Assembly (NCBI RefSeq): GCF_000177635.2
Contig: NC_014836.1
Span: 539,501 to 603,500 of the forward strand
Direction: 5' to 3'
DNA: 64,000 bases
DNA from: Desulfurispirillum indicum S5
GTDB taxonomy: Bacteria > Chrysiogenota > Chrysiogenetes > Chrysiogenales > Chrysiogenaceae
Shown one piece after another: positions 11,901 to 22,524 of this stretch. The position numbers and the translations under genes were made by a program. The notes under the pieces were generated by a model, which did not search any database, was not told the origin of the DNA, and was given only the letters and a program-made list of their open reading frames with translations. Each line of letters starts with the position of its first letter. Position 1 is the first letter of the stretch.

Positions 11901-12329
11901 GTGCACGGCGAATATGTGGCCGGCATCCGCTACCAGGCCTGGCAGCCCCACTCGTCCCTGCATCCCACCATCGGCATTCACTCGCCCATAACCTTTGACA
12001 TTGTTGATACCTGGAATAAACGCTCCATCGGCGGCTGTGTCTACCACGTCAGCCACCCCGGAGGGCGCAGCTATGAAACCCTGCCCGTCAACGAATTTGA
12101 AGCCCAGTCACGCCGCATCAACCGCTTCTGGGACATGGGGCACACAGCTGGCGTGCAGGAAGACGTTCTGCAGGTACCCACCAGTGGCCCCGTGACACGG
12201 CGCACCTTTACCCCCAGAACCGATGTATCCACGGATGTGCAGATCCTCTCCATCGAAAAGAACCGCGACTATCCCCACACGCTGGATCTGCGGCGCATGC
12301 CGCGAAAGCAGGAGACGCAAAAACGCTAA
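8952..12329 (+). CDS. Transglutaminase-like protein with DUF2126 domain
   Basis: A roughly 1125-residue protein. The N-terminal region begins SIRVAIRHRTSYTFDRP, typical of bacterial transglutaminase-like proteins. The Cys-His-Asp triad appears as GSCRDSAW (Cys181), DLHAWTEV (His near 230) and GLDPTSG (Asp near 245). From about residue 315 (LTMGGEPTFVS) onward it matches the large DUF2126 region. The TTG at 8952 gives the family-typical start; GTG at 8940 is in frame. In many genomes this gene is clustered with circularly permuted ATP-grasp and alpha-E proteins, thought to make or process a peptide. Neither partner is in this window. A B element abuts the stop codon. Confidence 0.85.
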   Translation: MSIRVAIRHRTSYTFDRPVNLSPHIFRLRPAPHCRTAIEAYSLKIEPEHHFLNWVQDPFSNFQARVVFPERATRLSIDVELIADMTPLNAFDFFVEEYAETFPFRYDEQMERELIPYLEILPGCPLTDAWTSAHRPATQVRTVDFLVELNRLLAQDIKYTIRMEPGVLSPDETLQRALGSCRDSAWLLVQIARRLGLAARFVSGYLVQLTADVPSLDGPSGPSEDFTDLHAWTEVYIPGAGWIGLDPTSGLLTAEGHIPLAGTPDPVSAAPVTGYTDVCQTEFSFHNRVERIYETPRVTRPYSDSQWQRIDALGQQVEAQLQEQDVRLTMGGEPTFVSIDDMDSAQWNITADGKHKRHLSAQLLRRLQQTFAPGGLLYYGQGKWYPGEPLPRWQMACFWRHDGVAAWRSPSRMANPQADGSHTPGDARRLLEALAGVFSIDPSHIKAAYEDAFYYLWKEGTLPANVNPLQCNLKDPLERKYLAELLGRDMGEPTGFVLPLRWHHEHCRWESSVWKLRRGELFLIPGASAMGFRLPLDSLESAPESECYHDPGHSQLEQQAPLEDFNQLIAERAAGQRPWPRAHVPEKDLVRFALCVEVRRGNIHVFLPPMARLESYLELIAIMEMLAEQLDIFIVIEGYEPPRDNRLKKLAITPDPGVVEVNIHPSHTWQELVSNTEQLYEQARLCRLGTEKFMLDGRHTGTGGGNHVTLGGPTPADSPLLRRPDLLRSLIGYWQNHPALSYLFSGLFIGPTSQAPRVDEGRDDRLYELEIAFNQIPGRDEKASLWLVDRVLRNLLTDLTGNTHRSEFCIDKLYSPDSPTGRLGLLEMRAFEMPPHSRMSLMQMLLIRSLVAWFWREPYTRPLIHWGTRLHDQFLLPHYVRRDMADVVEDLNQAGYAFEMDWLDPFFEFRFPHYGSVCVKDIVIELRMAIEPWHVLGEESASSGTARYVDSSVERLQLKVNGLNDARYLITCNSYPVPMQPTGVHGEYVAGIRYQAWQPHSSLHPTIGIHSPITFDIVDTWNKRSIGGCVYHVSHPGGRSYETLPVNEFEAQSRRINRFWDMGHTAGVQEDVLQVPTSGPVTRRTFTPRTDVSTDVQILSIEKNRDYPHTLDLRRMPRKQETQKR

Positions 12330-12451
12330 CAGGCTGCTGAAAACCCCCATCTGCGGTGTTGCCCGCTGCCGCTCGTTGTTGCAACGTACGGGGAGTACGC
12401 TTCACGCCTCGCTCTGCGGGCGCCTTGCACCTGTGGGTTTTCAATTGCCTG
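12330..12451 (+). repeat. Repeat family B, copy 2 (abuts a stop codon)
   Basis: CAGGCTGCTGAAAA begins at the base after the transglutaminase TAA, and the copy ends TTTTCAATTGCCTG. The central hairpin is CGTAC/GTACG around GGGGA. On the right it carries the extra flank TTTGAGGTACTTCAGTAAGC, also found with copies 3-7 but absent from copies 1 and 9. The next gene's ribosome-binding site lies about 40 bases beyond. Confidence 0.8.
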
Positions 12452-12502
12452 TATGATTTGAGGTACTTCAGTAAGCATGCCTCTCGGGAAAAGGAGGAGG
12501 CA

Positions 12503-13150
12503 ATGAAACGCTCTCCAATGACACCACGACCAGAGAGCCTGGGAGAAGAGATCGCCAGCAGCGTCAGCCACGGTGTCGGTTTCCTGGCAGCCGTTGCCGC
12601 AACGCCAGTGCTGATCCTCTTCGCCGCAGAACGGGGAAGCGCCTGGGGCATTGTGGGTGCCAGCGTCTTTGCCGCCACCATGCTGCTGCTCTACATTGCC
12701 TCCACCCTCTACCATGCCCTGGCGAAAAACCGGGCCAAACAGGTATTCCAGATTCTCGACCACGGTGCCATCTTTCTGCTGATCGCGGGAACCTATACCC
12801 CCTTCACCCTGGGCGTCCTGCGCGGCCCCTGGGGCTGGACACTGCTGGGCCTCGTGTGGAGCATCGCCATCGGTGGTATTGTGTTGAAATCCATGGGAGG
12901 CATCCGCTTCGAAAAGCTTTCCACGGCGCTGTACCTGGTCATGGGGTGGCTGATAGTCATTGCCATGAAACCCCTGTGGCAGAGCATGGAGCCATGGGGC
13001 CTCTTCTGGCTGGTGGCGGGCGGAAGCGCCTATACCACCGGCGTACTCTTCTACCTGGTCAGGATTCCCTACGCCCACTTCGTATGGCACCTGTTCGTGA
13101 TGGCCGGAACCACAAGCCATTTCTTTGCCGTGCTGTACTACGCGTACTAA
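12503..13150 (+). CDS. Hemolysin III / PAQR-type membrane protein
   Basis: A 215-residue protein with seven hydrophobic segments. Conserved family motifs are SxxSHGVG near the N-terminus, STLYHAL (residues about 72-78), ILDHGAIFLLIAGTYTPF (about 90-107) and a C-terminal WHLFVMAGTTSHFFAV. The spaced histidines and Asp are the putative metal-binding residues of the progestin/adipoQ receptor superfamily. The start follows AAGGAGGAGG, a very strong site. The bacterial members were named for haemolysis in a heterologous test, and their native role is unclear. Confidence 0.9.
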   Translation: MKRSPMTPRPESLGEEIASSVSHGVGFLAAVAATPVLILFAAERGSAWGIVGASVFAATMLLLYIASTLYHALAKNRAKQVFQILDHGAIFLLIAGTYTPFTLGVLRGPWGWTLLGLVWSIAIGGIVLKSMGGIRFEKLSTALYLVMGWLIVIAMKPLWQSMEPWGLFWLVAGGSAYTTGVLFYLVRIPYAHFVWHLFVMAGTTSHFFAVLYYAY

Positions 13151-13284
13151 GCAAAACGGCAAGCCAGCCGGAATGGGGGATGGGAAATAGAGAAAGGCCA
13201 TTTTGGTCCGTAGATTTAGAGGGGGAAAAGGCAGGGTTTCACACAAAGGCCTACTAACAGCTTACTGAAATACCTCAAAATACG

Positions 13285-13408
13285 CAGGCAATTGAAAAAT
13301 GCTCAGGTGCAAGGCGCTCGCGGAGCGTGGAATGAAGCGTACTCCCCGTACGTTGCAATGACACGCGACGGCGAGCAACACCGCAGATGAGGGTTTTTCA
13401 GCAGCCTG
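13285..13408 (-). repeat. Repeat family B, copy 3
   Basis: A 124-bp copy from CAGGCAATTGAAAA to TTTTCAGCAGCCTG with the CGTAC/GTACG hairpin in the middle. It carries the left extension ACAGCTTACTGAAATACCTC, as do copies 4-7. Confidence 0.85.
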
Positions 13409-13599
13409 CCAGGCACCAAGGAAAGACAGTGAGCGGGAGTACAGCCGGATTTACCGCGAATGGACACGAATACACGCGAATCTTGAAGAGTTATGCAGGT
13501 CTCTCGCCGTTCGCTGTGCTCACCGGAAACGCGGAGGGGGAAAAGGCAGGGTTTCACACAAAGGCCTACTAACAGCTTACTGAAATACCTCAAAATACG

Positions 13600-13723
13600 C
13601 AGGCAATTGAAAAATGCTCAGGTGCAAGGCGCTCGCGGAGCGTGGAATGAAGCGTACTCCCCGTACGTTGCAATGACACGCGACGGCGAGCAACACCGCA
13701 GATGAGGGTTTTTCAGCAGCCTG
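13600..13723 (-). repeat. Repeat family B, copy 4
   Basis: A 124-bp copy essentially identical to copy 3, about 315 bp downstream, with the same flanks. The flanking DNA is duplicated too, so it probably spread by duplication of a larger segment. Confidence 0.85.
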
Positions 13724-14094
13724 CCAGGCACCAAGGAAAGACAGTGAGCGGGAGTACAGCCGGATTTACCGCGAATGGACACGAATACACGCGAATCTTG
13801 AAGAATGATGCAGGTCTCTCGCCGTTCGCTGTGCTCACTCAAGACGCAGAGGCGCAAAGGTAAAGCACTGACTACTGGCCACTGACTACTTACTTGCCAA
13901 TAGAGTTCCCTGCTGGCTTTTGCCTTTATCTGCGAAAATCGGTGAAATCTGCGGATAAATTTCTTTGGCTGTTTTGGAGGTTGCGGAGGAAGCCAGGTCT
14001 CACACGAAATTCACGGAGCCACGAAGAAGGGCATGGGGAAGGGTTATAGGACATCTCTCTACCGACTACACACTACTTTCTCATCACCTCTTCC

Positions 14095-14394
14095 CTACCC
14101 ATGCGCACGGTGAAGTTCGGTGTCAGCGCGGTGGGCGGAGAGGTCGGTGGCAACGGCATCGATTTTTTTGCTGAGTTTGTCATCAACGTCATCGATACGC
14201 TTGCTGAGTTCGGTTTTAACTTCATTCAGGCGGTTATTGACCACATCAACCTTGAAGTCTACATCATCGATTTTTTGGTTCAGTTGGTCAAACTTCCGTC
14301 CAAACTCCTGCCGCAGGGAGTTATGCCCTTCCAGAACAAGGTCAAACTTGCTGTTCATCTCTTCCATCAGAATTTCGAAGTACTTTTGTTCCAT
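14095..14394 (-). CDS. Coiled-coil cassette protein 1 (subtype I, 99 aa)
   Basis: It starts at an ATG with GGGGTGAG 2 bases upstream and ends in the conserved tail HRADTELHRAHG. The head (MEQKYFEILMEEMNSKFDLV) is shared with the other subtype I copies. The middle is a short heptad/hendecad coiled coil with NQKIDDVDFKVDVVNNRL, then SKRIDDVDDKLSKKID. There are no cysteines, signal peptide or membrane segment, so it is probably a cytoplasmic oligomer. It is the copy with the shortest stalk. The function is unknown; similar small coiled-coil proteins with an AHRADTE-like tail occur in other bacteria, annotated only as hypothetical as far as I know. Confidence 0.75.
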   Translation of the reverse strand: MEQKYFEILMEEMNSKFDLVLEGHNSLRQEFGRKFDQLNQKIDDVDFKVDVVNNRLNEVKTELSKRIDDVDDKLSKKIDAVATDLSAHRADTELHRAHG

Positions 14395-14419
14395 GGCTCA
14401 CCCCTTGAATGCCAGGCAG

Positions 14420-14425
14420 TATATA
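14420..14425 (-). promoter_or_regulatory. Conserved TGGTATATA motif upstream of the coiled-coil genes
   Basis: On the minus strand, TTGCCCGCACTCTGG runs into TATATA about 26 bases before the cassette 1 start. The same block precedes cassettes 2 (16919-16924), 3 (17563-17568), 4 (18259-18264) and 5 (19562-19567), always with a short leader and a strong ribosome-binding site. The TG before the box resembles an extended -10; no consensus -35 is visible. Cassette 3 has TGTTATATA instead of TGGTATATA. Confidence 0.5.
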
Positions 14426-14556
14426 CCAGAGTGCGGGCAATGGGAAGTGTTGTTCGTGATAGGATGGAGTTGGGATTTGTCCGCAGGTTTGGAGAGGGAA
14501 AAGGCAGGGTTTCACACAAGGCCTACTAACAGCTTACTGAAATACCTCAAAATACG

Positions 14557-14680
14557 CAGGCAATTGAAAAATGCTCAGGTGCAAGGCGCTCGCGGAGCGT
14601 GGAATGAAGCGTACTCCCCGTACGTTGCAATGACACGCGACGGCGAGCAACACCGCAGATGAGGGTTTTTCAGCAGCCTG
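14557..14680 (-). repeat. Repeat family B, copy 5
   Basis: A 124-bp copy, near identical to copies 3, 4, 6 and 7, lying upstream of cassette gene 1 with the same flanking extension. Confidence 0.85.
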
Positions 14681-14966
14681 CCAGGCACCAAGGAAAGGCA
14701 GTGAGCGGGAGTAGCAGCCGGTTTTACCGCGAATGGACACGAATACACGCGAATCTTGAAGAATGATGGTTTGCTGTGCTCACGGGGGTCGCCAAGCTGC
14801 CAAGGGAAGACACGCGAACTGCTCACTGAAGGCAGTGGGAGGAGGCGATAAGGACTCTCGCTCATCACGTATCACTATAGTAGCGGGGAAAGGCCACCAC
14901 GGAAAGCGCGGAAGCATGCGTTTGCGCTGACAATGTGGGTGTCATGTCTTCGATTCTGAACACTTG

Positions 14967-15001
14967 CAAAAAAAAAGCACCTCCGCGAAATGCGGAGGTG
15001 C
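14967..15001 (-). terminator. Rho-independent terminator of the porin gene
   Basis: GCACCTCCGC/GCGGAGGTGC forms a perfect 10-bp stem with a 5-base loop, followed on the minus strand by nine or ten T. It lies 45 bases after the porin stop codon. Confidence 0.92.
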
Positions 15002-15045
15002 AGAACATCCATGAGGATAAAAGATGGTGCTTATGCACCGGGAAA

Positions 15046-15987
15046 TCAGAAGTCGTGACGGATACCGAAGCCCCAGTCAGTTGCATCAGGGCGGCTTCCA
15101 TCGCCTTCGTCAAACATGGCAACGCTGGCATAAAGCCAAGTGCGCTGTCCAAGATTTTTCTTCACGCCGACGTTGATGTTGATTCCATCGTCGTCACCGT
15201 CTTCATCCCAGCGAACCAGAGCAGCGTTGGCGGAAAGACCACCACCCAGGTTGAATTCAACAGGAATAAGGATAGTGTTCACTTTGTATCCATCAAAGTC
15301 CTGAGTGTCATAACCGAAGCCTACTGTCAGGTCGCCCATTTTGTAAACAGCAGTCAGGGCCAGCTGAGTGAAGTCGCCATCGTCGGCAGAAACATAACCA
15401 AGACGCAGGTCAAGGTTCTCTACACCTTTGAAGCCAACAGCAACAGAAGGTGCAAACTTGGTGTCTTCTTCAACGGTGTCAACTTCTTTGCTGAAGCTGA
15501 TGGCATAGGTCAGATCGTCAGCTTTGCCAGCGTACTTGATAGTGCGGTTAGTGCGTCCATCGTCGAACGCGCCTTCCATGTTGCCGCTGAAGCTTACGTC
15601 TTTGTTCGCCAGTACCCAGTTGTTCAGGTTGCCCAGCATGCTCTGAAATGCAGTTGTCTGGTGACCGAAAGAAACAGTACCGAAGTCGCCCTGCAGTCCA
15701 ACCCAAGCTTGACGGCCATTGAAGTTGCCTTTTGCGCCGCCACCGTTGCCAGCAGCAGTTTCAACGGAGCTTTCCAGCATGAAGATAGCCTTCAGGCCGC
15801 TGTCGAGGTCCTGTGAGCCACGGATACCAAGGCGTGAGCTTACTGAGTTGCCAGTAATGTACTCGCCATCATTTGCAGATTGGATTTCATAGTTAGCACG
15901 GCCGTACCAGGTGGTGTTTGCAGAGGCGGGGATGATCATGGCTGCGGCAGCCAGACCAGCGAGGGAAACTTTGACCATTTTGTTCAT
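15046..15987 (-). CDS. Gram-negative porin (outer-membrane beta-barrel)
   Basis: The 313-residue product starts MNKMVKVSLAGLAAAAM with a signal peptide cut after ASA (about residue 24). The mature protein begins NTTWYGRANYE, contains RLGIRGSQDLDSGLKAIFMLE, typical of general porins, and ends in Phe, the beta-barrel sorting signal. A GGAGAG site decides the start; an in-frame ATG four codons upstream is less likely. It has its own near-consensus promoter and strong terminator, so it is a monocistronic, probably highly expressed gene. Within the repeat island it is the only gene not of the coiled-coil family. It probably forms a trimeric diffusion channel for small solutes. Confidence 0.93.
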   Translation of the reverse strand: MNKMVKVSLAGLAAAAMIIPASANTTWYGRANYEIQSANDGEYITGNSVSSRLGIRGSQDLDSGLKAIFMLESSVETAAGNGGGAKGNFNGRQAWVGLQGDFGTVSFGHQTTAFQSMLGNLNNWVLANKDVSFSGNMEGAFDDGRTNRTIKYAGKADDLTYAISFSKEVDTVEEDTKFAPSVAVGFKGVENLDLRLGYVSADDGDFTQLALTAVYKMGDLTVGFGYDTQDFDGYKVNTILIPVEFNLGGGLSANAALVRWDEDGDDDGININVGVKKNLGQRTWLYASVAMFDEGDGSRPDATDWGFGIRHDF

Positions 15988-16034
15988 GTGTCTCTCCATT
16001 TTTTTGGATTTGTGGAAAAAATATCGTGGTTCAA

Positions 16035-16063
16035 CATATACTGGCTTAAAATCTGGTTGTCAA
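16035..16063 (-). promoter_or_regulatory. Sigma-70 promoter of the porin gene
   Basis: On the minus strand a perfect TTGACA (16058-16063) and TATATG (16035-16040) are separated by exactly 17 bases, about 48 bases before the porin start codon. Confidence 0.85.
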
Positions 16064-16267
16064 CGAAAAAAGTGCAGGAAGTGCGCAATTTTGGCGTACC
16101 CCTGAAAAAACTCTGAAACGGTTCATGGAAAAAGTGCCGGGACGTTTCTTGTTATTTTACTTGGAGTTTACGTTTTGGCGATGATTTGCAGTAAAAGGTG
16201 ACTATGTGTGTCGGTTACTGGCTGATTAGAGGTGTATTGTCATTGAGGGGTTTTGTGGCAGGGAGAG

Positions 16268-16352
16268 CGGGTAGCAGGTAGCGGGTAGCAGGTAGCGGGT
16301 AGCAGGTAGCGGGTAGCAGGTAGCAGGTAGCAGGTAGTTAGTAGTTAGGTAG
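16268..16352. repeat. 14-bp tandem repeat (minisatellite)
   Basis: Four perfect units of CGGGTAGCAGGTAG are followed by two 7-bp half units CAGGTAG and a degenerate end. It lies between the porin promoter region and cassette gene 2 and encodes nothing evident. The 16064-16267 stretch beside it holds no gene. Confidence 0.9.
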
Positions 16353-16561
16353 AGGGGTGGAGAGAAGCCATTGTGTCCGCAGATTGCGCAGATGGGCGCA
16401 GATTTGGAGGGGGAAAAGGCAGGGTTTCACACAAAGCCCTCAAAGGCACCAGGAAGGGCAGTCAAGAGAAGAGGCAATATATCACGCCCGTTCGCTACGC
16501 TCACTTAAGACGCTGGGAGCGCCAAGGAAAAGCACTGACTACTCGCTACTGGCTACTGACT

Positions 16562-16894
16562 CTATCCATGGGCACGGTGGAGTTCGGTGTCAGCTCGCTG
16601 GGCGGTGAGGTCGGTGGCAATGTCATCAACTTTTTTCTCCAGCTTGTCAATGCGCTTGCTGAGTTTGGTGTCAACTTCGTGAATCTGTTTGCTGAGTTTG
16701 GCATCAACAGTGTCAATCTTGTGATTTAACGCAAGTATCTGGGTATCCACTTGCTTAAAGCGGGTATCCACTTCATCGCGGAAATCATCAATTTTGCGAC
16801 CGAGTTCCTGACGAAGAGAGTCGTGTCCTTCGATAACTGCTTTGAAGCCGCTGTTCATTTCTTCCATCAGAATTTCAAAGTAATTTTGCTCCAT
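16562..16894 (-). CDS. Coiled-coil cassette protein 2 (subtype II, 110 aa)
   Basis: The head MEQNYFEILMEEMNSGF is followed by the subtype II block (RKIDDFRDEVDTRFKQVD, then ILALNHKIDTVD) instead of the NQKIDDVDFKV block of subtype I. A stalk of SKQIHEVDTKLSKRID plus KLEKKVDDI leads to the constant tail AQRADTELHRAHG. AGGAGATGAG precedes the ATG. It is charged throughout, with no membrane segment. It is the closest relative of cassette 4 and the first cassette after the porin gene. Function unknown. Confidence 0.75.
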   Translation of the reverse strand: MEQNYFEILMEEMNSGFKAVIEGHDSLRQELGRKIDDFRDEVDTRFKQVDTQILALNHKIDTVDAKLSKQIHEVDTKLSKRIDKLEKKVDDIATDLTAQRADTELHRAHG

Positions 16895-17205
16895 GTCTCA
16901 TCTCCTGATGGTTGGCAATATATACCAGGGTGCGGGCAATGGGAAGTGTTGTTTGTGATAGGAGGGAGTTGGGATTTGTCCGCAGATTTGGAGGGGGAGA
17001 AGGCAGGGTTTCACACAAAGGCCACAAAGGCACCAAGGAAAGGCAGTGAGAGGGAGTAGCAGCCGGATTTACCGCGAATGAACACGAATGAACGCTCATC
17101 TTGAAGAGTGATGCAGGTCTCTCGCCCGTTCGCTGTGCTCACTTAAGACGCAAAGCCGCTAAGGTAAAGCACTGACTACTGGCCACTGACGACTCGCTAC
17201 TGACT

Positions 17206-17538
17206 CTATCCATGCGCACGGTGGAGTTCGGTGTCAGCGCGATGAGCGGTGAGGTCAGCAGCGACACCATCCACTTTTCTTTCCAGCCGGTCCATGCGAC
17301 CTTCTATTTTGTCCATACGTCCATCAAGTTTATCCATGCGTTTGCTGAGCTTGGTGTCGACTTCATTCAGCCTGTTATTGACCACGTCAACCTTGAAGTC
17401 TACATCATCGATTTTTTGGTTCAGTTGGTCAAACTTCTGGCCAAATTCCTGCCGCAGGGAATTATGCCCTTCCAGAACAAGGTCAAACTTGCTGTTTATG
17501 TCTTCCAGCAGGATTTCAAAGCGATCTTGCTTCTCCAT
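17206..17538 (-). CDS. Coiled-coil cassette protein 3 (subtype I, 110 aa)
   Basis: The start follows a near-perfect AGGAGGTGAG. The head MEKQDRFEILLEDINSKF is slightly different from the others, and the subtype I block NQKIDDVDFKVDVVNNRL is nearly identical to cassette 1. The stalk then changes to 7-residue modules: MDKLDGR, MDKIEGR, MDRLERK. The tail is AHRADTELHRAHG. It looks like a hybrid of the DTKLSKR-type and MDKLDGR-type stalks and shares the latter with cassette 5. No catalytic or binding motif is visible. Function unknown. Confidence 0.75.
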   Translation of the reverse strand: MEKQDRFEILLEDINSKFDLVLEGHNSLRQEFGQKFDQLNQKIDDVDFKVDVVNNRLNEVDTKLSKRMDKLDGRMDKIEGRMDRLERKVDGVAADLTAHRADTELHRAHG

Positions 17539-17822
17539 GGCTCACCTCCTGATGGGTGGCAATATATAACAGAGTGTGGGCAAAGGAAAGTGTTGTTTGT
17601 GATAGGAGGGAGTTGGGGATGGGGGAGAGTCATTTGTCCGCAGATTACGCAGATGGGCGCAGATTTGGAGGGGGAAAAGGCAGGGTTTCACACAAAGCCC
17701 TCAAAGGCACCAGGAAGGGCAGTCAAGAGAAAAGGCAATATATCACGCCCGTTCGCTACGCTCACTTAAGACCCTGGGAGCGCCAAGGAAAAGCACTGAC
17801 TACTCGCTACTGACTACTGACT

Positions 17823-18233
17823 CTATCCATGCGCTCGGTGAAGTTCGGTGTCGGCGCGGTGGGCGGAGAGGTCGGTGGCCACTGCGTCGATCTTCCTGCT
17901 GAGTTTGGTATCAACTTCGTCGATGCGCTTGCTGAGTTTGGTATCAACTTCGTCGATGCGCTTGCTGAGCTTGGTATCAACTTCGTCGATGCGCTTGCTG
18001 AGCTTGGTATCAACTTCGTCGATGCGCTTGCTGAGCTTGGTATCTACCGTGTCAACCTTGTGATTAAGAGCAAGGATCTGAGCGTCCACTCGCTCAAAGC
18101 GACCATTCACTTCATCGCGAAAATCATCAATTTTGCGACCAAATTCCTGCCGCAGAGACTCGTGACCTTCTGCAACGGCTCTGAATTCACTTCTCATCTC
18201 TTCCATCAAAATTTCGAAGTACTTTTGTTCCAT
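17823..18233 (-). CDS. Coiled-coil cassette protein 4 (subtype II, 136 aa, expanded stalk)
   Basis: The longest member. The head is MEQKYFEILMEEMRSEF and the subtype II block (RKIDDFRDEV, ILALNHKVDTVD) resembles cassette 2. The stalk is an 11-residue repeat, DTKLSKRIDEV, present four times with a fifth diverged copy, followed by the constant tail. Eleven-residue periodicity suits a right-handed or nearly straight coiled coil. AGAGGTGAG precedes the ATG. Compared with cassette 2 the gene has gained whole 33-bp units, so the frame and coil register are kept. Function unknown. Confidence 0.75.
   Translation of the reverse strand: MEQKYFEILMEEMRSEFRAVAEGHESLRQEFGRKIDDFRDEVNGRFERVDAQILALNHKVDTVDTKLSKRIDEVDTKLSKRIDEVDTKLSKRIDEVDTKLSKRIDEVDTKLSRKIDAVATDLSAHRADTELHRAHG
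17898..18062. repeat. 33-bp tandem repeat inside cassette gene 4
   Basis: Four nearly identical 33-bp units begin GCTGAGCTTGGTATCAACTT (17898, 17931, 17964, 17997), with a fifth, diverged unit from 18030. Units 1-2 differ from 3-4 by a single C/T, so the expansion is recent. Each unit encodes 11 residues. Confidence 0.95.
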
Positions 18234-18682
18234 GGCTCACCTCTTGAATACAATGCAGTATATACCAGAGTACGGGCAAAGGAAAGTGTTGTTTGTTGTA
18301 GGAGTGGTTAGGGGTTGGGGATGGAGATGGAGAATAGAGAATGGGTGATGGGGGAGAGTCATTTGTCCGCAGATTGCGCAGATGGACGCAGATTCGGAGG
18401 GGGAAAAGGCCAGGTTTCACACAAAGCCCTCAAAGGCACCAGGGAAAGGCAGTGAGAGGGAGTAGCAGCCGGGTTTACCGCGAATGAACACGAATGAACG
18501 CGAATATTGAAGAATAATGCGGGTCTCACACCATGGCAGCAAAGGTGCAGAAGGTTGAGGGCAACCGGGGAATGGAAACCATTGTGTCCGCAGATTACGC
18601 AGATGGACGCAGATTTGGAGGGGGAGAAGGCAGGGTTTCACACAAGGCCTACTAACAGCTTACTGAAATACCTCAAAATACG

Positions 18683-18806
18683 CAGGCAATTGAAAAATGC
18701 TCAGGTGCAAGGCGCTCGCGGAGCGTGGAATGAAGCGTACTCCCCGTACGTTGCAATGACACGCGACGGCGAGCAACACCGCAGATGAGGGTTTTTCAGC
18801 AGCCTG
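18683..18806 (-). repeat. Repeat family B, copy 6
   Basis: A 124-bp copy with terminal CAGGCAATTGAAAA and TTTTCAGCAGCCTG, between cassettes 4 and 5. The uninterrupted block C at about 17000 (CACAAAGGCCACAAAGGCAC) shows the corresponding empty site. Confidence 0.85.
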
Positions 18807-19164
18807 CCAGGCACCAAGGAAAGGCAGTGAGCGGGAGTAGCAGCCGGGTTTACCGCGAATGAACACGAATGAACGCGAATCTTGAAGAATAATGCGGGTC
18901 TCTCGCCGATTCGCTGTGCTCACGGGGGTCGCCAAGCTGCCGAGGGAGGACACGGGAACTACTTACTTGCAATAGAGTTCCCTGCTGGAATTTGCCTTTA
19001 TCTGCGAAAATCTGCGAATAAATTTCTTTGGCTGTTTTGGAGGTTGTGGAGGAAGCCAGGTCTCACACGAAATTCACGGAGCCACGAAGAAGGGTATGGG
19101 GAAGGGTTATAGGGCATCTCTCTACCGACTACACACTGCAGGCTACTTTCTCGTCACCTCTTCC

Positions 19165-19536
19165 CTACCCATGGGCGCGGTGAAGTTCGGTGTCAGCGCG
19201 GTGGGCGGAGAGGTCGTCAGCGACACCATCCACTTTTCTTTCCAGCCGATCCATGCGACCTTCTATTTTTTCCATGCGGCCATCCAGCTTGTCCATGCGG
19301 CCTTCTATTTTGTCCATGCGACCATCAAGCTTATCCATGCGGTTGCTGAGCTCGGTTTTAACTTCATTCAGTCGGTTATTGACCACGCCAACCTTGAAGT
19401 CAACATCATCAATTTTTTGGTTCAGTTGGTCAAATTTCTTTTCAAACTTCAGGTCAAGTGCAGAATGGCTTTCCAGTACAAGTTCAAACTTGCTGTTCAT
19501 CTCTTCCATCAGAATTTCGAAGTACTTTTGTTCCAT
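19165..19536 (-). CDS. Coiled-coil cassette protein 5 (subtype I, 123 aa)
   Basis: The head MEQKYFEILMEEMNSKFELV is followed by a slightly divergent segment (SHSALDLKFEKKFDQ) and the subtype I block NQKIDDVDFKVGVVNNRL. The stalk has five 7-residue modules: MDKLDGR, MDKIEGR, MDKLDGR, MEKIEGR, MDRLERK. That is two more than cassette 3. The tail is AHRADTELHRAHG. GGGGTGAG precedes the ATG. With cassettes 1-4 it completes the order I-II-I-II-I. No enzyme motif, signal or membrane segment is present. Function unknown. Confidence 0.75.
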   Translation of the reverse strand: MEQKYFEILMEEMNSKFELVLESHSALDLKFEKKFDQLNQKIDDVDFKVGVVNNRLNEVKTELSNRMDKLDGRMDKIEGRMDKLDGRMEKIEGRMDRLERKVDGVADDLSAHRADTELHRAHG

Positions 19537-19932
19537 GGCTCACCCCTTGAATGCCAGGCAGTATATACCAGAGTACGGGCAAAGGAAAGTGTTGTTTGTG
19601 ATAGGAGGGAGTGGGGGGCATTTGTCCGCAGATTACGCAGATGGACGCAGATTCGGAGGGGGAAAAGGCCAGGTTTCACACAAAGCCCTCAAAGGCACCA
19701 GGGAAAGGCAGTGAGAGGGAGTAGCAGCCGGGTTTACCGCGAATGAACACGAATGAACGCGAATATTGAAGAATAATGCGGGTCTCACACCATGGCAGCA
19801 AAGGTGCAGAAGGTTGAGGGCAACCGGGGAATGGAAACCATTGTGTCCGCAGATGGGCGCAGATTTGGAGGGGGAAAAGGCAGGGTTTCACACAAGGCCT
19901 ACTAACAGCTTACTGAAATACCTCAAAATACG

Positions 19933-20056
19933 CAGGCAATTGAAAAATGCTCAGGTGCAAGGCGCTCGCGGAGCGTGGAATGAAGCGTACTCCCCGTACG
20001 TTGCAATGACACGCGACGGCGAGCAACACCGCAGATGAGGGTTTTTCAGCAGCCTG
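19933..20056 (-). repeat. Repeat family B, copy 7
   Basis: A 124-bp copy near identical to copies 3-6, with the same extension, upstream of cassette gene 5. Confidence 0.85.
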
Positions 20057-20708
20057 CCAGGCACCAAGGAAAGGCAGTGAGCGGGAGTAGCAGCCGGGTT
20101 TACCGCGAATGAACACGAATACACGCGAATATTGAAGAATAATGCGGGTCTCTCGCCGATTCGCTGTGCTCACCGGAAACGCGGAGGGGGAAAAGGCAGG
20201 GTCTCACACAAAGGCCACAAAGGCACCAGGGAAAGGCAGTGAGAGGGAGTAGCAGCCGGGTTTACCGCGAATGAACACGAATGAACGCTCATTTTGAAGA
20301 ATGATGCAGGTCTCTCGCCTGTTCGCTGGCTCACGGGGGTCGCAAAGCACGGGAACGATTCACTTGCCATGGATTTCCCTGAGCTCACTGGCTTTTGCCT
20401 TTATCTGCGAAAATCTGAAAAATCTGCGGATAAATTTCTTTGGCTGTTTTGGAGGTTGCGAAGGAGGTCAGGTTTCACTCCATGGCCGCAAAGGTGCAGA
20501 AGGTTGAGGACAACCGGGGGATGGAAAGCATTGTGTCCGCAGATTGCGCAAAATGTTGACAGACCACGAGGGAAGACTCCCCCTACCCCCTACCCCCTAT
20601 CGCGGGGCTTGCGGTGAGAATTCTCCCGGCGTATGCTGGTGCTGTGTTCCCGGTTTTCCTGTTGCTGCGGATGCCGGTGAAGGCTATGTTTCTGCGGAGG
20701 TTTGGTTT

Positions 20709-21131
20709 ATGCGTGCAGGTTTTGTTGCTGCCCTGCTGGTCAGTGGTCTGGTGTTTGTGAGCGGGTGCAGTGAGCAGTCTGCTCCCGAGGTTTCGGGTGC
20801 GTCGTCCGCTCCTGCTGCTGCGCAGCAGCAGGCTCATCTGATGGGTACGGTTATCGAGACGATGAATGTGGCTGGTTATACCTATGTGCAGCTTGACGCT
20901 GATGGTGAGATTCTCTGGTTCGCTGGTCCCGAGACGGTGGTCAGTGAGGGCGACCGGGTTATGGTTATTGACGGGATGGTGATGGAGGACTTTTACAGTC
21001 GTTCCCTTGACCGAACGTTTGAAAAGCTGATTTTTGTGGGTGCTTTTGTGCTGGAGGGTGGCGAGATGCCACAGCAGCAGCCTGGCTTGCCGGCGGGGCA
21101 TCCACCTCTTGGGGCTGATGTTCAGAAGTAA
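20709..21131 (+). CDS. Small NrfJ-like lipoprotein
   Basis: The 140-residue product starts at an ATG 8 bases after GGAGG. Its signal sequence ends in the lipobox VSGC, giving Cys near residue 20, followed by an Ser/Ala/Gln linker. The folded part (GTVIETMNVAGYTYVQLDAD, then LWFAGPETVV) resembles the small beta-barrel domain found in NrfJ-type proteins, which occur with multihaem cytochrome and other anaerobic respiratory genes. It would be anchored in the periplasm. Its neighbour is the convergent hcp gene, sharing a terminator. Ligand and function are unknown. Confidence 0.7.
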   Translation: MRAGFVAALLVSGLVFVSGCSEQSAPEVSGASSAPAAAQQQAHLMGTVIETMNVAGYTYVQLDADGEILWFAGPETVVSEGDRVMVIDGMVMEDFYSRSLDRTFEKLIFVGAFVLEGGEMPQQQPGLPAGHPPLGADVQK

Positions 21132-21152
21132 TTTCTCTGTTGTTGTACATGC

Positions 21153-21184
21153 GCAAAAGCCCGGTCATGTGACCGGGCTTTTGC
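21153..21184. terminator. Bidirectional terminator between lipoprotein and hcp
   Basis: GCAAAAGCCCGGTC/GACCGGGCTTTTGC forms a perfect 14-bp stem with loop ATGT and T-rich arms in both directions, between the convergent gene ends. Confidence 0.85.
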
Positions 21185-21216
21185 TGTATCTGGTGAAGGA
21201 GGAGAATGGGTGTTGG

Positions 21217-22524
21217 TCAGCCCAGCATGTCCTGCAGGTCCTGCTGGGGGTCGCCGGTGAGCTTGAGGTTGAAGTTGTCAATGAGGAAGTTGAAGATGTC
21301 CTCGTTGAAGAACTGGGGCGCGCGTGGTCCGACGCGGATGTCCTTGACTCCGATGCTGAGCAGGCCAAGCAGGATGGCGACGGCTTTTTGTTCCATCCAG
21401 GAGAGGACGATGCTCAGGGGCAGGTCGTTGACGCCACAGCCGAAGACTTCGGCCAGTTTGCTGGCGATGATGACGCCGCCGATGGAGTCGTTGCACTGTC
21501 CAAGGTCAAGCAGGCGGGGAATTTCGGTTCCGGGGACGTTGCCGAATTCCATGTCGTTGAAGCGGAACTTTCCGCAGGATGAGGTGAGGATCACGCAGTC
21601 CTGGGGGACGATTTTCGCCAGTTCACGGTAGTATTCTCCGCCTTTGCCGGGGGAGTCGCAGCCGGCGATGACGAAGAAGCGGCGGATTTTTCCGCTCTTG
21701 ACGGCTTCCACGACCTGGGGGGCCAGGGAGAGGATCACGGAGTGGTGGTGGCCGGTGGGTACGGTTTCATCGGATGCCCAGTTGGTGTCGGGCAGCGACA
21801 GTGCTTTTTCAATGATGGGGCTGAAGTTGTCGTTTTCAATGTGGGTGGCGCCGTCGATTCCCACCTGGGCATAGGTGAAGACGCGGTCGGCGTAATCCTT
21901 GCCTTTGGGGGGCACGATGCAGTTGGTGTTGACGAGGATGGCGCCGTTAAATTTGCTGAACAGGTCTTTCTGGTCAAACCAGGCCTTGCCGACGTTGCCC
22001 TTGAGGTGCTTGTATTTGGACAGTTCGGGGTAGGCGTGGGAGGGCAGCTGCTCGGAGTGGGTGTAGACGTTGACGCCTTTGCCTTCGGACTGTTCCAGCA
22101 GTTTGCGCAGGGCGTGGTGGTCGTGGCCGGAGACGAGAATGGCCTTTCCTTCAACGCGGTTTTGGGATACTTTGACAGGCTGTGGCATGCCGTAAGTGTC
22201 GGTGTGGGCCTTGTCCAGAATGCTCATCATGTCAACGGCGGCCTGGCCGACTTTCATGGTCTGGGCGACGTGCTGGTCGAAGTTGAAGTTGGAGTTGGTG
22301 AGGGTGAAGTAGAGGGTCTCGTTCACCACGTTGTCAACGGCGGAACAGTCGGCGCCATAGTGGGCAGCCTGGACACGATAGGCGGCGATGCCCTTGAGGC
22401 CGAAGATCATGATATCCTGGAGTCTCGCAAGGTTTTCGTCTTTACCGCAGGTGCCGACGGTCTGGCCTTTGGCGCCGCAGCCTTCGGGCATGGACATGGA
22501 ACACTGGTAGCAGAACATACTCAT
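21217..22524 (-). CDS. hcp: Hybrid-cluster protein / hydroxylamine reductase (class III-like)
   Basis: A 435-residue hybrid-cluster (prismane) protein, which reduces nitric oxide or hydroxylamine and protects anaerobes from nitrosative stress. The N-terminal cluster cysteines are Cys5, Cys8, Cys16 and Cys26. The spacing between the last two (9 residues) is wider than the usual CxxCx7-8Cx5C. Hybrid-cluster ligands appear in SGHDHHALR, NTNCIVPP, AGCDSPGKGG, TSSCGKFRFND and LGQCNDS. The length (about 435 versus about 550) matches the short class that lacks part of the helical domain. GGAGGAT precedes the ATG. It is divergent from a Crp/Fnr gene with an FNR-like operator between them. Confidence 0.95.
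   Translation of the reverse strand: MSMFCYQCSMSMPEGCGAKGQTVGTCGKDENLARLQDIMIFGLKGIAAYRVQAAHYGADCSAVDNVVNETLYFTLTNSNFNFDQHVAQTMKVGQAAVDMMSILDKAHTDTYGMPQPVKVSQNRVEGKAILVSGHDHHALRKLLEQSEGKGVNVYTHSEQLPSHAYPELSKYKHLKGNVGKAWFDQKDLFSKFNGAILVNTNCIVPPKGKDYADRVFTYAQVGIDGATHIENDNFSPIIEKALSLPDTNWASDETVPTGHHHSVILSLAPQVVEAVKSGKIRRFFVIAGCDSPGKGGEYYRELAKIVPQDCVILTSSCGKFRFNDMEFGNVPGTEIPRLLDLGQCNDSIGGVIIASKLAEVFGCGVNDLPLSIVLSWMEQKAVAILLGLLSIGVKDIRVGPRAPQFFNEDIFNFLIDNFNLKLTGDPQQDLQDMLG

Follow-up and report, generated by a model that had tools for sequence, protein, structure and literature searches.

Five paralogous coiled-coil genes in a repeat-rich island of Desulfurispirillum indicum S5 and the possible surface-polysaccharide link of their protein family

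Introduction

In Desulfurispirillum indicum S5, five small paralogous genes lie near each other on the minus strand, and their products fall into two types that follow each other in the order I-II-I-II-I. How did such a regular array arise, and what might its proteins do? The original prediction, made from the DNA letters, took the alternation and the matched promoters as signs of a designed set, such as hetero-oligomers of chosen length. The window used here, the whole stretch of DNA that was analysed, covers 64,000 nucleotides (positions 539501-603500 of the single 2,928,377-bp contig; the published genome size of strain S5T is likewise 2,928,377 bp, PMC3368425). The reading that we favour, at a probability of about 0.55, is that the array consists of locally expanded, recombining paralogues encoding homo-oligomeric coiled-coil spacers or scaffolds that are most likely linked to surface polysaccharides. 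The genetic history of the array is far surer than the function of the proteins.

The genes of the island

All five open reading frames are present (Table 1) and the order of the types is real, with the middle block NQKIDDVDFKV in genes 1, 3 and 5 and RKIDDFRDEV in genes 2 and 4. A strong Shine-Dalgarno sequence precedes every gene, and genes 1-5 share, with small changes, a roughly 60-bp leader that ends in the extended -10-like TGGTATATACT, so that the original prediction was accurate in these respects. Its description of the proteins needs correction. The head, described as constant, is not, as gene 3 begins with MEKQDRFEILLEDI, and the supposedly constant tail shrinks to an invariant RADTELHRAHG because gene 2 ends in QRADTELHRAHG. 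Nor is stalk length the only difference: types I and II diverge across the whole middle, and the stalk repeats of genes 4 and 5 are unlike each other.

Table 1. Features of the island in window coordinates.
Feature	Position	Strand	Remarks
Gene 1, type I coiled-coil protein, 99 aa	14095..14394	-	ORF, subtype motif, dN/dS, tree
Gene 1 leader	14395..14475	-	extended -10-like TGGTATATACT and Shine-Dalgarno
Porin gene (Porin_4, E 1.7e-35)	15046..15999	-	between genes 1 and 2; outside the coiled-coil family
Gene 2, type II coiled-coil protein, 110 aa	16562..16894	-	ORF, subtype motif, dN/dS, tree
Gene 2 leader	16895..16973	-	
Gene 3, type I, 110 aa, short 7-residue stalk repeats	17206..17538	-	ORF, subtype motif, dN/dS, repeats
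Gene 3 leader	17539..17617	-	
Gene 4, type II, 136 aa, stalk of 11-residue (33-bp) repeats	17823..18233	-	ORF, subtype motif, AlphaFold2, repeats
33-bp tandem repeat, gene 4 stalk	17897..18044	-	4.5 copies, 99% matches
Gene 4 leader	18234..18313	-	
236-nt flank, first copy	18360..18595	-	100% identical to 19619-19854; upstream of genes 4 and 5
Query stretch with dispersed repeat (~155-nt core)	18579..18808	-	46 genome matches
Gene 5, type I, 123 aa, stalk of 7-residue (21/42-bp) repeats	19165..19536	-	ORF, subtype motif, repeats
21/42-bp tandem repeat, gene 5 stalk	19249..19342	-	
Gene 5 leader	19537..19616	-	
236-nt flank, second copy	19619..19854	-	

A sixth paralogue, with type II affinity, lies 2.19 Mb from the island (contig positions 2744949-2745293, minus strand; L009:7950-8294). 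Reading frame and ribosome-binding site are intact in all six D. indicum copies, and the Shine-Dalgarno sequence is good in these as well as in the homologues of two related genera. For those pairs of D. indicum copies that allowed an estimate, dN/dS is about 0.12-0.27, and the synonymous difference per site is 0.36-0.77. Judging by this substitution pattern, the island genes are kept by purifying selection and are not decaying copies; together with the homologues in other phyla, this shows that the five reading frames are not chance occurrences. The split between types I and II is old according to the gene tree, since the sixth copy and the lone family gene of another genus both fall with type II. 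Type I forms one clade (support 95/96), while the joining of type II with the sixth copy and the other genus's gene, with values of 87/79 and 90/86 that fall short of the strict threshold, is in part weakly supported.

Mosaic identity and the history of the array

Between genes 1 and 5, the upstream 100 nt are 92% identical, the first 45 nt 100%, the middle 77%, the last 45 nt 96% and the downstream region 97%. Genes 4 and 5, although of different types, are 99% identical from -200 to -101 and 53% identical in the middle, and genes 2 and 4 are 97% identical downstream with a middle of 77%. Flanks and gene ends that are 92-100% identical thus accompany middles of 53-77% in these pairs. Non-coding flanks that are more alike than the coding middles between them point to recent recombination or gene conversion rather than simple duplication. 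The same process also explains the matched promoters, which the original prediction had counted, together with the constant ends, as signs of design: the likeness is real, but has in part been homogenised by recent recombination (flanks 92-99% versus middles 53-77%).

Most likely, the array grew by segmental duplication, as a local expansion of paralogues, and continues to be rearranged through recombination or gene conversion at the conserved gene ends, the leaders and the dispersed intergenic repeats. Such exchange would homogenise the flanks and ends and leave the middles distinct, with each gene, carrying its own leader, maintained by purifying selection. From their complete identity, the 236-nt upstream regions of genes 4 and 5 appear to have been duplicated or converted recently. 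The island shows that recombination in repeat-rich DNA can maintain paralogues with constant ends and variable middles.

The spacer used as a query (230 nt) has 46 matches across the genome, and most of these span a shared core, some 155 nt long (GGCAGGCTGCTGAAAAACCCTCATCTGCGG...). Five strong matches lie in the island; besides the query stretch, long matches are located at window positions 13209-13410, 13533-13725, 14482-14682 and 19848-20058. As this repeat is dispersed across the whole genome, an integron-like cassette array was rejected. Short repeats of the ATCTGCGTCCATCTGCGTAATCTGCGGACA kind also occur in the island (window 12330-20058), as does a 14-bp tandem repeat of AGCGGGTAGCAGGT (5 copies, 98% matches, window 16266-16337) in the gap that separates gene 2 from the porin gene. 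No structured RNA was matched in Rfam within window 12300-21300. The conserved leader was considered as an ancient regulatory element and rejected, as the sixth copy and the two related genera share the Shine-Dalgarno region only; a sigma-54 promoter was rejected upon inspection by eye, the spacing being two bases short.

In the two related genera, the search for synteny with the island found hcp in both, at a distance from their family gene. The hemolysin III-like membrane protein gene on the opposite, left side of the island (window 12356-13150) has no match in these genera, and the DNA specific to this lineage may therefore reach past the island.

A widespread protein family

One scan of genomes from bacteria and archaea yielded 27 loci, mainly in Geobacteraceae and other deltaproteobacterial assemblies, with some in Latescibacteria, Mariprofundaceae and WOR-1. 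Many genomes carry one family gene, including those of two other genera within the host's taxonomic family; others have arrays with two to five members. The family consensus consists of MEKDHLEILLEDIRGKFDLVLEGH, a variable stalk and KIDAVAADLxAHRADTExH. A second head type, B (...EDFQHKLDLVxEGHQML), is joined to the same tail; searched against D. indicum, it gave tail-side matches only and no match to the head.

Membership in a known family was accepted for a score above the curated cut-off or, where no cut-off is given, for a convincing whole-length match. Pfam and NCBIfam returned generic coiled-coil cross-matches, and none among the matches listed reached its cut-off, while PADLOC and PHROGs returned partial, weak matches with no convincing whole-length one. 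No relative of the family was confirmed in the viral collection, so the genes are not classed as phage-borne, and the gene 1 protein, the one query used, had no match in the plasmid collection. A toxin-antitoxin module does not describe the island either, as the genes have separate leaders and lie 284-2167 nt apart, and no toxin family was matched. The literature search for a description of the coiled-coil family returned nothing relevant, in agreement with the original prediction that no such system had been described; this is a widespread bacterial protein family for which no description was found. At L092:1309-1548, a HEPN-like reading frame ends in HSEAHHGVYRVKDG, near the family tail, as if fused to a coiled-coil gene by recombination. 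A porin-like gene (MTKFQKQMLTIAAAGALTAVTALPAMAFENEFHG...) adjoins distant family members in two genomes (L124:7823-9265 and L125:6892-8373), which may be compared with the porin of the window and is possibly a coincidence.

Rod structure and stalk length

A single-chain AlphaFold2 model of the gene 4 protein is one uninterrupted helix from residue 2 to 135 with a mean pLDDT of 95.2; being a model of one chain, it carries no information on the oligomer state. The best hydrophobic periods are 3.54-3.64, and the product qualifies as a coiled-coil rod, defined here by a continuous helix with 7/11-residue hydrophobic periodicity. The stalk unit is the 11-residue KLSKRIDEVDT in gene 4 and the 7-residue GRMDKxx in gene 5. 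When the distance between head and tail is taken modulo 11, 52 of the 62 distinct members, which are not independent sequences, fall into four of the eleven classes (22.5 would be expected from an even spread). These four classes are connected by 7-residue steps, which argues that changes in length preserve the phase of the coiled coil.

The product is most likely a cytosolic, parallel, homo-oligomeric rod. Its conserved ends would bind partners, and the stalk, altered in steps of 7 or 11 residues, would set the spacing between them. Natural length variants arise through repeat expansion, and if stalk length does set the spacing, the family offers a direct test of how coiled-coil length controls a cellular assembly. 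A bolder form of this idea, that the family provides stand-alone spacers or rulers for the surface-polysaccharide machinery, adjustable by steps of 7 and 11 residues, with the D. indicum array as a recombining repertoire of rod lengths, is a long shot.

Association with surface-polysaccharide loci

The role in polysaccharide assembly is proposed because family members elsewhere lie mostly in surface-polysaccharide loci. At least two polysaccharide-type genes were found within about 10 kb in 20 of 35 member regions, as opposed to 0 of 25 control regions (Fisher p 8e-7; the regions are not phylogenetically independent). This comparison used 15 polysaccharide-type query proteins with self-matches removed. 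The 35 regions include three pairs from one genome, and the 25 controls were hand-picked at spread positions in seven genomes, the same as or related to those of the members. The order of an EPS-type MarR regulator, a family gene and a Wzx-type flippase recurs in three genomes (L034, L161, L162), and an XrtA/PEP-CTERM-type ATPase directly follows the family gene at five loci (L164, L169, L175, L176, L177); the neighbour matches for the MarR_EPS (TIGR04176)-, Wzx- and XrtA/PEP-CTERM (TIGR03015)-type genes fall under the NCBIfam cut-offs. DegT- and Wzx-type genes occur around the sixth D. indicum copy, the flippase gene being within 3.4 kb, and the region of the copy in genome G002 holds Ugd- and WecB-type genes. 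The five-gene island itself (L207) is not beside polysaccharide genes. For D. indicum, the likeliest role would be a scaffold or spacer tied to polysaccharide assembly, and the wider significance lies in a widespread, undescribed family that is strongly linked to such loci.

Toxin-antitoxin genes are frequent neighbours of many family members as well, which means that polysaccharide loci may simply gather accessory genes. This leads to the most serious competing explanation, in which the coiled-coil gene is a small mobile or selfish-like hitchhiker that, like the adjoining MntA/HepT and GxxExxY genes, builds up in variable islands, polysaccharide loci among them; the array of D. indicum would be one more case of this. 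It fits arrays interspersed with toxin-antitoxin genes (L092, L121, L093-L095), the patchy distribution of the family (44 of 141 genomes in the Geobacter-like order to which Citrifermentans bremense belongs) and the absence of a repeat-rich island near the lone family gene of each of the two related genera. Against this stand the operon-like positions conserved across several species, and neither a transposition enzyme nor terminal repeats were found with the family gene; the negative searches of the viral collection and, with one query, of the plasmid collection point the same way. We regard it as unlikely, though with an appreciable share of the probability.

Alternation of the two types

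A set of five genes, three of type I and two of type II, has ten possible orders, and one of these alternates strictly. Other arrays are arranged as A-B-A (L091), A-B-A-B (L092) and, in a five-gene array, B-A-A-B-A (L121), and three distant relatives are adjacent at L125. The original prediction had proposed a search for further arrays with the same alternation, and the orders found elsewhere vary, so that alternation does not hold as a rule: the first two orders alternate and the third does not. Given the one-in-ten chance of a random order and the different orders elsewhere, the alternation needs no special explanation; it is probably a by-product, or chance. With single homologues common too, reading the alternation as design is not supported, and the proposal of a designed set is upheld only in part. 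The array at L121:6767-11333 (presumably Geotalea uraniireducens Rf4) lies amid MntA/HepT genes in a locus for nucleotide sugars and polysaccharides and is the closest parallel to the island that was found.

A hetero-oligomeric set, in which types I and II, or heads A and B elsewhere, pair through their conserved ends into mixed rods of set lengths, is improbable. Two head types do lie side by side in several genomes (L121, L092 and L091, where A and B are 25 nt apart), both types are maintained by selection, and the ends are conserved across types. Nevertheless, genomes with a single copy are common, the host has no head-B gene, and the array order differs between genomes. The stalks of genes 4 and 5 also differ in repeat length (11 versus 7 residues) and in total length, for which reason pairing of types I and II is not favoured.

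According to the original prediction, single homologues without alternation would mark the array as a passive duplication. Such single copies do exist, both in the host's relatives of the two other genera and in many genomes beyond, but the low dN/dS argues against the conclusion. That the genes are redundant copies without separate importance, retained temporarily by chance, is very improbable: the flanks do carry recent repeat-rich duplications, yet dN/dS is low over a long divergence and the frames and ribosome-binding sites of all six copies are intact.

Comparison with known systems

HepT/MntA (MNT-HEPN) toxin-antitoxin genes often adjoin the family arrays of other genomes, whereas none were seen in the D. 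indicum island, and the coiled-coil family has neither domain. In loci of the MarR_EPS, Wzx and XrtA/PEP-CTERM types, family members occupy conserved positions, while the five-gene island lies outside them. The coiled coil of WbdD sets the length of the O-antigen in E. coli O9a (PMC5082667; structure PMC3482155). Like the rods proposed here, it is a parallel coiled coil that serves polysaccharide synthesis and whose length matters, and at 1.5 A per residue the 134-residue helix of gene 4 would be expected to span about 200 A, near the approximately 200 A of WbdD. WbdD also has a kinase domain, a methyltransferase domain and an end that interacts with the membrane, whereas the island proteins are predicted to be helix only. 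By analogy of function, and with no sequence relation claimed, WbdD is the closest precedent for the island proteins, which are not claimed as its members.
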